Positions 1,368 to 61,398 of a stretch of DNA of 64,000 nucleotides are shown one piece after another. Made by a program: the position numbers and the translations under genes. The notes under the pieces were generated by a model. That model did not search any database. It had not been told where the DNA came from and saw only the letters and a list, made by a program, of their open reading frames with translations. Origin of the DNA: Bacillus sp. NEB1478 (GTDB lineage Bacteria > Bacillota > Bacilli > Bacillales > Fictibacillaceae); assembly GCF_031582965.1 (NCBI RefSeq), contig NZ_CP134049.1, forward strand, positions 248,001-312,000. The letters are read 5' to 3'. Each line of letters starts with the position of its first letter. Positions within the stretch are counted from its first letter, which is position 1.

Positions 1368-1378
1368 GAAGATAAATT

Positions 1379-1480
1379 GTCGAAATTTGTCAAAAGACTC
1401 AATTATGATGAAAAGAGACTCAATTCCTTTTCGAAGAGACTCAATTCGATACGAAAGAGACTCAATTACGGAAAATCCTC
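1379..1480. repeat. 21-bp phased repeat array, locus 1a (GACTCAATT word)
   Basis: After a GTCGAAATTTGTC head at 1379, the word GACTCAATT recurs at 1396, 1417, 1438 and 1459, an exact 21-bp period, while the bases between the words vary. The array lies just after the upp terminator in a convergent gap. No coding potential is seen. Confidence 0.85.
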
Positions 1481-1544
1481 ATACTCATCACAAAAAAACT
1501 AGCGATATTCGCATCGTTTTTACGTAAGAAGTGGTCATCGGTTT

Positions 1545-1662
1545 GTCGAACATATTCATTAAAAGTGTGGAATTATGAGCGTTAAATCTGAAATTATCGG
1601 CTAAAAATCTGGAATTATCATCACAAAGTCTGGAATTATGATAACGGGAGCTGAAATTTCGC
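1545..1662. repeat. 21-bp phased repeat array, locus 1b (CTGGAATTAT word)
   Basis: A GTCGAACATATTC head at 1545 is followed by the anchor AATTAT at 1571, 1592, 1613 and 1634 and a decayed copy (AATTTC) at 1655, again an exact 21-bp step. The flanking word is TCTGG or GTGTGG. It is a second array in the same gap, with a different word from array 1a. Confidence 0.85.
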
Positions 1663-7898: not shown

Positions 7899-9332
<1,434 letters not shown>

Positions 9333-9339
9333 TGCCTGA

Positions 9340-9762
<423 letters not shown>

Positions 9763-9805: not shown

Positions 9806-10021
9806 TTATACCAGGGGTGGAGGACCAGAAAGTTTTTTATAACCTGCTCTTATATTATCTCCAGCCGCCGCCGCTGCCGCTGATGCTGCCGCTGAAGAAC
9901 CTCCAGCCGCAGCCGCTGCTGCCGCCGCCGCTGAAGAATCTCCAGCCGCCGCTGCTGCCGCTGCAGCTGCTGCAGCTGAACCATTATTAGAATATTGTTC
10001 CTCTTTATAACTCTTCGGCAT
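9806..10021 (-). CDS. Poly-alanine microprotein of unknown function
   Basis: A 71-residue product that I do not recognise. The ATG at 10021 has a near-perfect ribosome-binding site (AAAGGAGGTG). Layout: a polar N-terminus MPKSYKEEQYSNNGS, then three alanine blocks of about 8-11 residues, separated by GDSS or GGSS and the last followed by GD, and a C-terminal IRAGYKKLSGPPPLV. The alanine codons are a mix of GCT, GCA and GCG (GCC is not used), so the run is not a simple triplet expansion, which supports selection on the protein. It lies 41 bp downstream of another small gene on the same strand. Possible ideas are a surface or spore structural peptide or a peptide precursor, but nothing in the sequence decides this. 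Confidence 0.6.
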   Translation of the reverse strand: MPKSYKEEQYSNNGSAAAAAAAAAAAGDSSAAAAAAAAAGGSSAAASAAAAAAGDNIRAGYKKLSGPPPLV

Positions 10022-16235: not shown

Positions 16236-16236
16236 T

Positions 16237-16350
16237 GTCGGATTTTGTCTGTTCGTGGTTAACTCGATTTTTACGTGGAATTATGGAAAATAACGTGGGT
16301 AAAAATCGTTTGACTGTGGATATATTGAAGATTACCGTGGATATGTTGCC
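16237..16350. repeat. Phased repeat array, locus 2 (ACGTGGAATTAT / GTGGATAT word)
   Basis: A GTCGGATTTTGTCTGTTC head at 16237 is followed 18 bp later by GTGG at 16255, then at 16275, 16295, 16316 and 16337 (20-21 bp steps). It lies in the convergent gap between glpD and the minus-strand DUF1722 gene. Confidence 0.85.
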
Positions 16351-18245: not shown

Positions 18246-19549
18246 CAAATGAGCGTGATGATCAAAACCCGATCGCAAATGACGGTTTATCAATAGAAGA
18301 GCAAAAAAAGAAAGCAGCCGCAGAAGCAAAAGCAAAGGCGCTCGAGCTCGCGAAACAGCGTAAGGCCGAAAAAGAGGCTGAGGCACAAGCGACAGCCTCC
18401 GCACCAGAACCAGAGCTAACAAAAGAAGAGCTGAAGAAAAAAGCAGCCGCAGAAGCAAAGGCAAAAGCACTCGAACTCGCCAAACAGCGTAAGGCCGAAA
18501 AAGAAGCTGAGGTACAAGCGACAGCATCAGAACCTGAGCTCACAAAAGAAGAGCTGAAGAAAAAAGCAGCCGCAGAAGCAAAAGCAAAAGCGCTCGAACT
18601 CGCAAAACAGCGTAAAGCGGAAAAAGAAGCCGAATCAATTTCACAGGCAGAAGCTCCATCAGAAGAAACAGATGATCTGGCGAAACAAAAGGCACTTGCC
18701 GCAGCTAAGGCGAAAGCCGCTGCAGCCGCAAAAGCAAAGGCCGCCGCAGCTGCCAAAGCAAAAATGCTCAGAGATGCAGGCGGAGTAGAACCTGTGCAAG
18801 AAGCAGGTGCAGGAGACGACGAAAAAGCAAAAGCTGCCGCTAAGGCGAAAGCTGCTGCAGCCGCAAAAGCAAAGGCCGCCGCTGCTGCTAAAGCAAAAGC
18901 GCTGAGAGAAGCAGGCGGAGCAGAAACTACAGATGCAGGCGGAGCAGGTGACGATGAAAAAGCGAAAGCCATTGCAGCAGCGAAAGCGAAAGCTGCCGCA
19001 GCCGCAAAAGCGCGTGCCGCTGCAAACGCAAAAACAGCCGCAGAAGAGCCTGCAGAACCAGAAAAACCATCACCTAATCAGCCAATCCTAGACACCTACG
19101 TAAAAGTCATCAAAGAGCAGCTCGGACCAGATGTTTTAGAGGATGCTTATATCAATAAGCTATCAAAAGATGTGCCGACACTAGTCGCGAAACCAGAGAG
19201 CTATTATAAAATAGCAGATCTTTTAAAAAACAATGAAAAGTTGCGTTTTGACTATCTTTCTGAAATGCACGGCACCGATTTTGAAACACATTTCGAAGTG
19301 TACAACCACCTTTATTCTTATGAAATTCGGCAGTCTGTCGCTTTAAAAGTGAAAATTGACAGAAACAGCGCCACTACCCATTCCATTACCCCGTTATGGG
19401 AGGGTGCAAACTGGCCAGAGCGCGAAACGTTTGATCTATTAGGAATCATCTTTGAAGGTCATCCGAATTTGACGCGCATTATGATGCCAGATGATTGGGT
19501 GGGCTATCCGCTCCGAAAAGATTATGAACCGCACGACGTGGAGGTGTAA
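18242..19549 (+). CDS. nuoC: NADH-quinone oxidoreductase subunit C with long Ala/Lys/Glu repeat extension
   Basis: The C-terminal 155 residues (about 280-435) are an ordinary NuoC (30 kDa) domain, with [17 protein letters not shown] and the closing [12 protein letters not shown]. The first 275 residues are low-complexity: three copies of a unit around [20 protein letters not shown] (about residues 22-47, 65-90, 106-131), then three copies of an [13 protein letters not shown] unit (about 149-180, 194-226, 238-265), each of the first two followed by GGxE. This is predicted to be a highly charged helix. The start overlaps the nuoB stop and the frame is continuous, so the extension is translated. 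Repeat number probably varies between strains. Confidence 0.93.
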
Positions 19550-19552
19550 AGT

Positions 19553-20653
19553 ATGATCCGGACAGAAGAAATGCTCCTCAATGTAGGTCCACAGCACCCT
19601 AGTACACACGGTGTTTTCCGGATCGTACTCAAAATTGACGGAGAAACGATCATTGAAGCGACACCTGTAATCGGTTATTTGCACCGCGGAACAGAGAAAA
19701 TAGCTGAAAACCTGCAATACACGCAGATTATTCCGTACACAGACCGGATGGATTATTTAGCTGCGATGACGAATAACTACGTGATCTGTCATGCTGTTGA
19801 AACGATGATGAGTCTTGAAATTCCGGAACGTGCAGAATTTTTGCGTGTCATCGTTATGGAACTTGGACGAATCGCGAGTCACCTTGTTTGGTTTGGTACA
19901 TATTTGCTCGACATTGGTGCAATGAGCCCGTTTTTATACGCGTTTCGTGAACGTGAAGCCATCATTAATATGCTGAACGAAATTTGCGGTGCACGCCTGA
20001 CATTCAATTACATGCGTGTCGGCGGCGTGAAATGGGATGCCCCAGAAGGATGGATCGAGAAGGTACGCGATTTTATTCCATATATGAGGGAAGAACTTGC
20101 GGGTTATCATGACCTCGTTACAGGAAATGAGATCTTCCTCAACCGTGTAAAAGGAATCGGCTATTATTCGAAGGAAGAGGCGCTGAATTATTCGCTTAGC
20201 GGCGCTAACTTAAGATGTACCGGAACACAATGGGATCTTCGAAAAGATGAGCCTTATTCGATTTATAACCGTTTTGATTTTGATGTTCCTGTCTTTCATA
20301 CAGGAGATGCATGGGCGCGTTATCAGTGCCGTATGCAGGAGATTGAAGAGTCACTGAAAATTTTAGAACAAGCGGTAGAACAGTTTCCTGAAGAAGGACC
20401 AGTCATGGCGAAAGTGCCGCGTATCATCAAGCCTCCAAAAGGAGAGGCGTTCGTCAGAATCGAATCCCCTCGTGGAGAAATTGGCTGTTACATCGCTTCT
20501 GAAGGAAAGAAAGAGCCTTACCGCTTAAAGTTCCGCAGGCCGTCGTTTTATAACCTGCAGATCCTTCCAAAGCTTTTAGTCGGTGAAAACATATCCAACT
20601 TGATTACGATTTTAGGCGGAATTGACATTGTGCTCGGGGAGGTTGATGGCTGA
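19553..20653 (+). CDS. nuoD: NADH-quinone oxidoreductase subunit D
   Basis: The 49-kDa-type subunit, related to the large subunit of NiFe hydrogenases; it forms the quinone-binding pocket with NuoB. It is 366 residues. The opening NVGPQHPSTHGVFRIV and the middle MDYLAAMTNNY contain the His and Tyr residues of the pocket. The C-terminus ends ITILGGIDIVLGEVDG as usual. It starts 4 bp after nuoC and overlaps the nuoH start. Confidence 0.97.
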   Translation: MIRTEEMLLNVGPQHPSTHGVFRIVLKIDGETIIEATPVIGYLHRGTEKIAENLQYTQIIPYTDRMDYLAAMTNNYVICHAVETMMSLEIPERAEFLRVIVMELGRIASHLVWFGTYLLDIGAMSPFLYAFREREAIINMLNEICGARLTFNYMRVGGVKWDAPEGWIEKVRDFIPYMREELAGYHDLVTGNEIFLNRVKGIGYYSKEEALNYSLSGANLRCTGTQWDLRKDEPYSIYNRFDFDVPVFHTGDAWARYQCRMQEIEESLKILEQAVEQFPEEGPVMAKVPRIIKPPKGEAFVRIESPRGEIGCYIASEGKKEPYRLKFRRPSFYNLQILPKLLVGENISNLITILGGIDIVLGEVDG

Positions 20654-28198: not shown

Positions 28199-28325
28199 CC
28201 ACACTTTTGATGAGGAATCGCAGACTTTTTTCTCTTAATCCAAGACTTTTTTATAGAGATTCCACACTTTTTCGGTGGAATCCCACACTTTTATTCTTAA
28301 TAACCACGAGACAACAAAATTCGAC
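28199..28325. repeat. 21-bp phased repeat array, locus 3 (minus orientation, GTGTGGAAT word)
   Basis: On the plus strand the anchor ACTTTT (or ACTT) recurs at 28203, 28224, 28245, 28266 and 28287, exactly 21 bp apart. Read on the minus strand, a GTCGAATTTTGTTGTC head (from 28325) precedes the first GTGG by 18 bp. It lies after the nuo terminator. Nothing else was recognised in 28123-28550. Confidence 0.88.
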
Positions 28326-28550
28326 AAACCGAGCATTGAAACATCAGCAAAAAAAACTCATTTTCAAACTCAAAAAAGTGATAAATTCAGCTTTTATAGC
28401 GGGCTACATCCCACAATTATTACAAAAAAATGAACAATGTTTAATAAAGCGTTTTCATAACAAAAAACTAGTGAAAAAGTAACTATCTAATATATGAGGA
28501 AAGAATTAATATTAAGGTTGTCGAAATATGTAATAGGAGGTCTGTACGAC

Positions 28551-31123: not shown

Positions 31124-31176
31124 GTGCGAAACTGGTAGATTTGTGTGCCAAACTCATGCGTTAATGTGGATTCGTG
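31124..31176. repeat. 21-bp phased repeat array, locus 4 (short, GTGCSAAAC word)
   Basis: GTGCGAAAC at 31124, GTGCCAAAC at 31145 and GTGGATTCG at 31166 are exactly 21 bp apart. No head motif was found. It is a weak, short member lying after the murA terminator. Confidence 0.6.
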
Positions 31177-31262
31177 TAACAGATAAAATAACACGTACCG
31201 TAAAATCAACCAAAAAGTAAAGGGACAGGCCATAGCCAGCTTTCAATTATATAAACTGTTGT

Positions 31263-35977: not shown

Positions 35978-36015
35978 AAGAAGGGGGGTCTGTCCCGGGA
36001 CAGACCCCCTTCTTT
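35978..36015. terminator. Near-perfect palindromic terminator after spoIID
   Basis: The arm AGAAGGGGGGTCTGTCCC pairs with its complement with almost no loop and is followed by TTTAAAA. The core GGGGTCTGTCCC recurs near 43.3 kb and 45.7 kb. Confidence 0.75.
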
Positions 36016-36065
36016 AAAACCGCATTGTGCCAGGAGGGATGATGCGGTTTTTCTTTTGTGAGTAT

Positions 36066-36198
36066 GTCGGATATTGTCTGTTCGTGCTTATGTTGGACAA
36101 AAGTGTGCCATTATCTATTAAAAGTGTGAGATTGTCCTTCAAAAGCATGGATATGTGATGAAAAAATGTGGATACACAACTAATAAATATGGATATGC
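36066..36198. repeat. 21-bp phased repeat array, locus 5 (AAAAGTGTG word)
   Basis: A GTCGGATATTGTCTGTTC head at 36066 is followed by GTGC at 36084 and then units aligned at 36103, 36124, 36145, 36166 and 36187, an exact 21-bp step. It lies between spoIID and spoIIQ. Confidence 0.85.
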
Positions 36199-39189: not shown

Positions 39190-39258
39190 TATATCCACGA
39201 TAAATTCGATTAATTCCACGTTAAATGGGATAAAACCCACGAACTGACAAAATTCGAC
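39190..39258. repeat. 21-bp phased repeat array, locus 6 (minus orientation)
   Basis: On the plus strand CCACG recurs at 39195, 39216 and 39237, exactly 21 bp apart. Read on the minus strand, a GTCGAATTTTGTCAGTTC head starts at 39258, 18 bp before the first GTGG. It lies in the convergent gap between mbl and the S58 peptidase gene. Confidence 0.82.
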
Positions 39259-39280
39259 TCTCGCGCGCAATTTCAAAAAC

Positions 39281-59685: not shown

Positions 59686-59728
59686 AGTTTAAGGTGAGTT
59701 AGTGATAAGCTATGCATGAGCTGCGCGA

Positions 59729-59860
59729 GTCGAATGTTGTCGACTCGTGGTTAAATCGAAAATAACGTGGAATTATCGAAAATAAAGCGGGGAATATCGA
59801 AAATAACGTGGGATTAATTGAAATAACGTGGAATTATTGGACATTACCGTGGAATTAATT
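59729..59860. repeat. Phased repeat array, locus 7 (ATAACGTGGAATTAT word)
   Basis: A GTCGAATGTTGTC head at 59729 is followed 18 bp later by GTGG at 59747, then at 59767, about 59787, 59808, 59828 and 59849 (20-21 bp steps). It lies in the convergent gap between the small lipoprotein and the DUF5667 gene. Confidence 0.88.
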
Positions 59861-61307: not shown

Positions 61308-61398
61308 GAAAAACGGCAGCTGGCTGGCAATGCAAAATTGTGCAGAAGCCCCTGTAGCTTTGCGTCGCTATGTTTCCATAGGTTTGCCTTTATCTTTT
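61308..61398 (-). promoter_or_regulatory. Probable cyclic-di-GMP-I (GEMM) riboswitch aptamer
   Basis: The minus strand contains the class hallmarks in order: AAAGGCAAACC (61381-61391 region), GAAA, GACGCAAAGC (61357-61366), then a loop, and GCCAGCCAGCTGCCG (61314-61328). It lies between a predicted promoter (61413-61441) and the DUF5667 gene. Confidence 0.8.

Follow-up and report, generated by a model that had tools for sequence, protein, structure and literature searches.

Sequence comparison showed, for a class of intergenic arrays, a defined unit anatomy, spacing, heads, placement, an orientation in two array classes, turnover of the repeated word and partial clustering of word class by genome. 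As a tentative explanation, whose chance we put slightly below even, these arrays may be rows of direct-repeat sites for one or more sequence-specific proteins with drifting specificity. We infer both a protein that reads the words and its cooperative binding. The class is well supported in Fictibacillus and present in other Bacillaceae; outside Bacillaceae, where samples were small, arrays were not convincingly seen. Beyond what an earlier, sequence-only reading had described, there is a second head class, the words co-vary by genome and arrays occur outside the genus.

Arrays of the window and their spread

The window is the whole 64,000-nucleotide stretch that was analysed. A check of its sequence located all eight intergenic arrays that had been claimed. 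They are listed here with the steps between words, in bp, as matched by regular expression.

1378..1480, + strand: head I (TGTCGAAATTTGTC) and four GACTCAATT units at 21-bp steps, behind upp (array 1379; word steps 21, 21, 21)
1544..1662, + strand: head-I-like TGTCGAA and five GTGTGGAATTAT-type units at 21-bp steps, in the same gap as the 1378..1480 array (array 1545; word steps 21, 21, 21, 21)
16236..16350, + strand: head I and ACGTGGAATTAT/TGTGGATAT units at steps of 20-21 bp, in the convergent glpD/DUF1722 gap (array 16237; word steps 20, 20, 21)
28199..28326, - strand: head I (leftward from 28326) followed by five GTGTGGGATT-type units at 21-bp steps, behind a nuoN-like gene (array 28199; word steps 21, 21, 21, 21)
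31124..31201, - strand: head II (ACGGTACGTGTT..TGTTACACG, leftward from 31201) and three recognisable units, behind a murA-like gene (array 31124; word steps 21, 21)
36065..36198, + strand: head I followed by AAAAGTGTGGAT-type units, between the gene for SpoIID and that for an M23 peptidase (SpoIIQ-like) (array 36066; word steps 21, 22, 21, 21, where the 22 hinges on the choice of anchor in a degenerate word)
39190..39259, - strand: head I (leftward from 39259) and three TAACGTGGAATTA-type units, in the convergent mbl/S58 gap (array 39190; word steps 21, 21)
59728..59860, + strand: head I followed by six ACGTGGAATTAT-type units, of which the first is degenerate, at steps of 20-21 bp; the array under study (array 59729; word steps 21, 20, 20, 21)

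The description of these arrays as combining words specific to the locus with a constant phase and a common head was borne out. A (T/A)GTCG(A/G)A head stands ahead of seven of the eight. Its claimed position 18 bp before the first unit is true for 1379 and 39190, where it was measured, and for 16237, 28199, 36066 and 59729, where it was determined by eye because the regular expression had its first match in the second unit, at +38. For array 1545 the distance is 23 bp. Four of the seven gaps are convergent, as claimed, judging from ORF directions and from Pfam assignments for ten flanking genes (with the DUF5667 gene left out). The window also contains a c-di-GMP-I riboswitch at 61312-61398 on the minus strand (72.8 bits). 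The third gene of a nuo-like operon has long coding repeats, 123 and 135 bp in length, at 18291-19035.

Autocorrelation of the gaps at 20-21 bp against shuffles, the check that had been proposed, revealed an excess at lag 21 (z 7.0 in 30 window gaps, compared with 200 dinucleotide shuffles), and no other lag from 10 to 44 exceeded z 3.1. The source genome, a single contig of 3.93 Mb, was sampled at even intervals in 20 stretches of 20 kb, to which the window was added (464 kb and 232 gaps in all), with genes called by a crude ORF rule. A scan over periods of 11-44 bp, whose array sets vary with the thresholds chosen and include some false members, found 37 strong self-similar segments, 26 of them with a period of 20-22 or 41-42 bp; shuffled sets gave 0.6 each. 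A BLAST search with one array as query matched 53 places in this genome (40 of the 81 candidates scored) and 11 of 41 genomes, all 11 belonging to Fictibacillus, of which 18 genomes were searched, the source genome included. Thus, the absence of further arrays and of conservation in relatives, which had been named as grounds for dismissing the class, was not what we found.

Relatives were collected by SpoIID. Eleven named Fictibacillus records had 76-81% identity, and the next 69 loci, with titles nearly all from other genera of Bacillaceae or Bacillales, had at most 61%, so that the source genome, too, probably belongs to Fictibacillus. In the 11 Fictibacillus loci, 32 of 38 strong segments had periods of 20-22 or 41-42 bp and every locus was positive. 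The 69 other named loci contributed 46 of 107 segments at these periods, spread over 22 loci, with wider scatter of periods and one very repetitive member (L080). The same family or order, sampled by 15 loci, gave 4 of 15 segments in four loci, two of these AT-rich and doubtful; elsewhere in the phylum, 20 loci gave 1 of 17, and one 50-kb stretch of E. coli had no strong segments at all. Outside Fictibacillus, convergent gaps were not enriched in arrays, with 0.06 per kb versus 0.16 per kb in co-directional gaps.

Four loci from Rossellomorea and similar records (L090, L102, L118 and L114) have two successive arrays in one gap, upstream of spoIID, with unrelated words, GGCTGGATTT-type and then TTTATTTTCAA-type. 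A Bacillaceae-like spoIID locus with such arrays was also found in a record titled Pseudomonas sp. ISL-84 (L106), which is probably mislabelled. In Bacillus litorisediminis (L109), very long arrays at 9166-9389 and 19293-19608 comprise 19 and 14 aligned units with CCGAAC-type words.

Unit anatomy, heads and placement

Within-array alignment divided the unit into a conserved word of about 11 bp and a far less conserved spacer of about 10 bp. The alignments took in 23 of 25 arrays from the source genome (a set that includes one coding repeat at 9864), 26 of 26 from the genus and 41 of 42 from other genera. Mean pairwise identities of word and spacer were 0.78 and 0.43, 0.79 and 0.47, and 0.70 and 0.42, respectively, with the spacer values of 0.42-0.47 still above the chance expectation of 0.27-0.28. 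By column permutation, contiguity of an 11-column block was significant at 0.05 in 22% of source, 38% of genus and 32% of other arrays. Because few single arrays reach significance, the word/spacer anatomy is a statement about averages.

The power of A/T content at 10.5 bp was 33% in the source, 32% in the genus and 25% in the other set, against 11% in a null made of noisy copies of random gap 21-mers (p of 4e-20, 3e-15 and 8e-16; 51 of 52, 34 of 34 and 49 of 58 arrays), the source set being non-independent in that 29 of its loci had been retrieved for their resemblance to a single array with a head, and many of its arrays are related ACGTGG ones. The 21-bp harmonic was also raised in the genus and other sets. 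This second harmonic at 10.5 bp, far above the null in all three sets, supports the helical meaning that had been attached to 21 bp.

Head I consists of a TGTCGAA-like box and a second, TTGTC-like box. It resembles the tandem Spo0A (0A) box, a TGTCGAA heptamer that occurs as tandem copies 10 bp apart. Of the 34 arrays in the unbiased genus set, 14 had TGTCGAA in their flanking sequence where 5.6 were expected; the corresponding count for the source genome, 12 of 52 versus 1.7, is biased, as the loci were fetched with a head-bearing query. The heptamer is enriched in gaps at large (57 versus 6.8 in the genus set and 154 versus 28.4 in the other set). It lies within 70 bp of 7 of 25 arrays in the source set, 15 of 26 in the genus set and 4 of 42 in the other set, and is common in array-free gaps too. 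The exact head I pattern stands out only in the source genome among the 18 genus genomes, with 15 occurrences versus 0 for the control there and 0-5 versus 0-5 in the other 17. The main head of the genus is head II, ACGGTACGTGTT(N6-12)TTAC, which is present in 17 of the 18 genomes at 3 (source genome) to 65 copies each, while its control pattern was found in none of the 18.

The head II sample comprises 89 rows from 17 genomes, drawn from 30 loci and 59 of 60 further stretches (one unmatched; two represent the same array). Step statistics cover the 78 rows with at least three words. All 276 single steps between words were of 20 bp (70) or 21 bp (206), with none of 19 or 22. Where a word is missing, 27 of 28 steps of 36-48 bp fell at 41-43. 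The odd distances were ten of 9-12, one of 35 (outside the 36-48 set) and three of 62-63 bp. Three words were counted in 7 arrays, four in 13, five in 26, six in 31 and seven in 1.

The claim that arrays are placed behind terminators is supported at head II loci: in a scan run without a shuffled control, an intrinsic terminator lay between the stop codon and the array in 20 of the 21 loci where a minus-strand gene was at most 300 bp away. In 17 of these 20, head II lay 114-158 bp from the T-run, approximately the room of six units. Beyond the array lies a minus-strand gene in 23 of 29 loci. The word pair of the 1378..1480 array occurs at 11 loci of the source genome, and by our own reading the GACTCAATT arrays are oriented alike relative to transcription in 10 of the 11. 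On the contig, all five loci below 1.9 Mb have these arrays on the plus strand, and all six above 2.6 Mb have them on the minus strand. For the ACGTGG word in co-directional gaps, orientation was 7 versus 5, without bias. In genome G005, 39 of 48 head II copies follow the contig half, the halves being taken as replication arms; gene orientation may be the cause of this bias.

Word turnover and the proposed rows of sites

The gap behind the SpoIIQ-like gene contains head II and in-register units in all 11 named relatives, yet the words are unlike: depending on the record they are CGCTCAA, CACGCAG, GCTCATAGA, or alternating CACCGGT and CACCTGA. In the source genome this gap is only 120 bp, with no room for an array. 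At one orthologous array in close relatives, divergence of head, word and spacer was 0.019, 0.116 and 0.178 among four records and 0.000, 0.111 and 0.375 among three, where 8 of the 28 head columns were fixed by the procedure that found the rows. In the mbl gap, by eye, six of 11 relatives have an array of other words behind mbl and five have none; L058 has TTTATG, versus mostly TTTATA in four others, in five units, and the spacers differ. A GGGGGTCTGTCCCGGGACAGACCCCC-type hairpin behind spoIID (window 35983-36009) is kept in variant form in all 11 named relatives, by eye.

Word class clusters partly by genome. Concordance of array pairs within a genome was 0.606 versus 0.268 when permuted (maximum of 2000 permutations, 0.38), for the 71 of 89 head II arrays with at least four words and with a permutation that ignores relatedness and dispersed copies. 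With 127 alike-spacer pairs left out, word identity was 0.659 within genomes (248 pairs) and 0.521 between them (2110 pairs), values inflated by assigning class from the best of five cores; spacer identity was 0.300 within and 0.289 between. Six of the 12 genomes with at least two classed head II arrays (G001, G002, G005, G008, G011 and G014) hold two or three word classes, so several readers or a loose one would be needed. The head I arrays of the source genome have many words. By our own reading, the class at the SpoIIQ-like locus is also the one most frequent in the rest of the genome for 6 of the 8 genomes that could be decided; two differ, and there is one tie. For a word's cis partner within 21 kb, the mean was 0.56 versus 0.24 control copies, on few counts (12 of 26 arrays testable).

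Of the roles that had been suggested for the arrays, we retain that of DNA-binding sites, as rows of sites for one or more putative proteins. The geometry would be analogous to that of LytTR repeats and the use to that of stoperators, both described below. The word of about 11 bp would be read by a putative sequence-specific DNA-binding protein, and spacing of 20-21 bp would place all sites on one face of the helix, such that copies could bind side by side. The head would fix one end of the array. As the specificity of the reader shifts over evolutionary time, the words would follow, with the geometry and head outlasting the word. The bound row may form an orientation-specific barrier (a roadblock or insulator) against transcription passing or entering the terminator region. 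This function is suggested because arrays lie behind terminators and because head II and GACTCAATT arrays are oriented; taken alone, a barrier role is doubtful.

A wider proposal, possible in our view although well short of probable, is that address arrays linked to terminators number in the tens to hundreds on Bacillaceae chromosomes. Their words would be read by dedicated, fast-evolving DNA-binding proteins, with phase and head inherited and the word rewritten, in all units and loci, as the reader changes. If so, an abundant intergenic class in a large bacterial family would have a function of which we found no description, and a co-evolving reader protein would await discovery. The element offers a direct test of conserved site geometry with replaced sequence, and a test of whether bacteria back intrinsic terminators with protein barriers.

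Known systems and rival explanations

CRISPR arrays have repeats and spacers of some 25-40 bp and are accompanied by cas genes; with a word of about 11 and a spacer of about 10, the arrays differ in size and were rejected as CRISPR. Iterons of plasmid origins, found in one origin per replicon, are direct repeats that have a conserved core and a period close to two turns of the helix. The arrays are like them in direct repeats and core, but are many per chromosome. REP/BIME elements are likewise high-copy and extragenic and, in the source material available, have proposed roles in supercoiling and termination. REPs are palindromic, however, whereas the array units are direct repeats that vary between loci, and 10 folds detected no RNA structure (z -1.5 to +1.4); membership was rejected on the missing palindromic stem-loop units. 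Those folds, at the level of chance, also speak against the suggested 3' RNA structure. Rfam had no match at any array in the window or at 20 further loci, and the RNA structure reading was rejected on the 10 folds and two Rfam scans. A coding origin was rejected by eye, as many arrays mix 20- and 21-bp steps and contain stops.

Closest in use are the stoperators of Cluster A mycobacteriophages, described in the accessible portions of the sources as many asymmetric sites, oriented with transcription, with a consensus that differs between phages along with their repressors (PMC9283540, PMC6550527). They offer an analogue of a roadblock made of many asymmetric sites with variable consensus, although stoperators are there separate 13-bp sites of one phage repressor and the arrays are phased rows with a head. 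Class A flexible patterns, an 11-bp periodic bias proposed to mark protein interaction sites (PMC1242344), are presented in the part of that paper available as statistical, covering the genome and extending up to 50 bp; they have neither heads nor arrays of words at a fixed 21 bp. The portions of the literature covered by our search contained no description of such phased arrays.

Closest in geometry are LytTR sites, which the accessible part of one source gives as asymmetric direct repeats of about 9 bp with 11-13 bp between them, a period of 20-22 bp and repeats that vary by system (PMC6193735). The arrays share direct repetition at about 21 bp, with steps of 20-21, so that LytTR regulators themselves might bind them. 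We consider this very improbable. In that source, LytTR sites are two repeats upstream of a promoter, whereas the arrays mostly have four to six words and stand behind terminators. A LytTR protein was not found in every array-bearing genome: only 0-2 LytTR domains occur per genome, and G010 had no match, yet carries 9 head II copies with arrays of one clean word. LytTR is ruled out for G010 unless its gene falls in an assembly gap (99% complete). The arrays might instead act at the level of RNA, for example as Rho loading sites that halt antisense transcription. All 18 genus genomes have Rho. Read from head to array, the strand of head II arrays is rich in C and poor in G (C 0.283, G 0.162), and this strand is antisense to the adjoining gene in the 23 of 29 loci noted above. 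However, the direction of C>G strands was not fixed over co-directional arrays (sense to antisense 10:6 of 17, 7:6 of 14 and 12:23 of 35), and a Rho loading site was rejected on this ground, with head II alone C-rich antisense. Helical spacing would be unexpected for single-stranded RNA, and the word classes would be left unexplained, making a role at the RNA level improbable.

Two further readings dispense with a protein that reads the word. Gyrase, HU-like and LrpC-like proteins have roles on curved or wrappable DNA, and phased A/T blocks could provide such DNA at gene ends, with the word irrelevant. The 10.5-bp A/T harmonic in all three sets, median detected array lengths of 97 bp (source genome) and 112 bp (genus) and the location near 3' ends are consistent with this. 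Shape alone, however, needs neither conserved words inside arrays nor their partial clustering by genome, and 22-bp steps are absent although their phasing would be about as good as that of 20. We regard a pure shape element as quite unlikely. Alternatively, the arrays could be dispersed selfish repeats copied into safe space behind terminators, their internal likeness reflecting ancestry by slippage and copying. This is unlikely as an account of the class, although several observations favour it. One array has its 53 BLAST places in the source genome, where a longer dispersed element of about 300 bp surrounds ACGTGG arrays, as seen in an alignment of 8 of 29 loci (L003, L008, L009, L011, L014, L016, L019 and L024). 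The two ends of this element carry terminator-like hairpins, and it has a conserved GATAGCTTCA stretch. Arrays within G005, G014 and G009 have spacers in common, and the 36065..36198 array is missing, by eye, from the same SpoIID gap in all 11 named relatives. Against it are the exact 20-21 bp spacing and the SpoIIQ-like gap, which keeps head and register in all 11 relatives while the words are unlike. The lack of recognised viral or plasmid copies is a further point against it: the head I pattern had no match in viral sequences, the single head II match in IMG/VR lies inside coding DNA and was taken as chance, and no plasmid copies of an array were recognised.

Within head II arrays, word identity was 0.744 and spacer identity 0.332, the latter compared with 0.29-0.30 between arrays. 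Since words are alike beside unlike spacers, copying of whole units is excluded as a general explanation, and the simple phased repeat generator that had been suggested does not explain most arrays. Minisatellite or VNTR slippage was rejected on the same averages, with L222, L080 and L103 as exceptions in which whole units were copied, spacer included. Mobility is real for part of the array class; it explains the spread of the arrays, not their anatomy.
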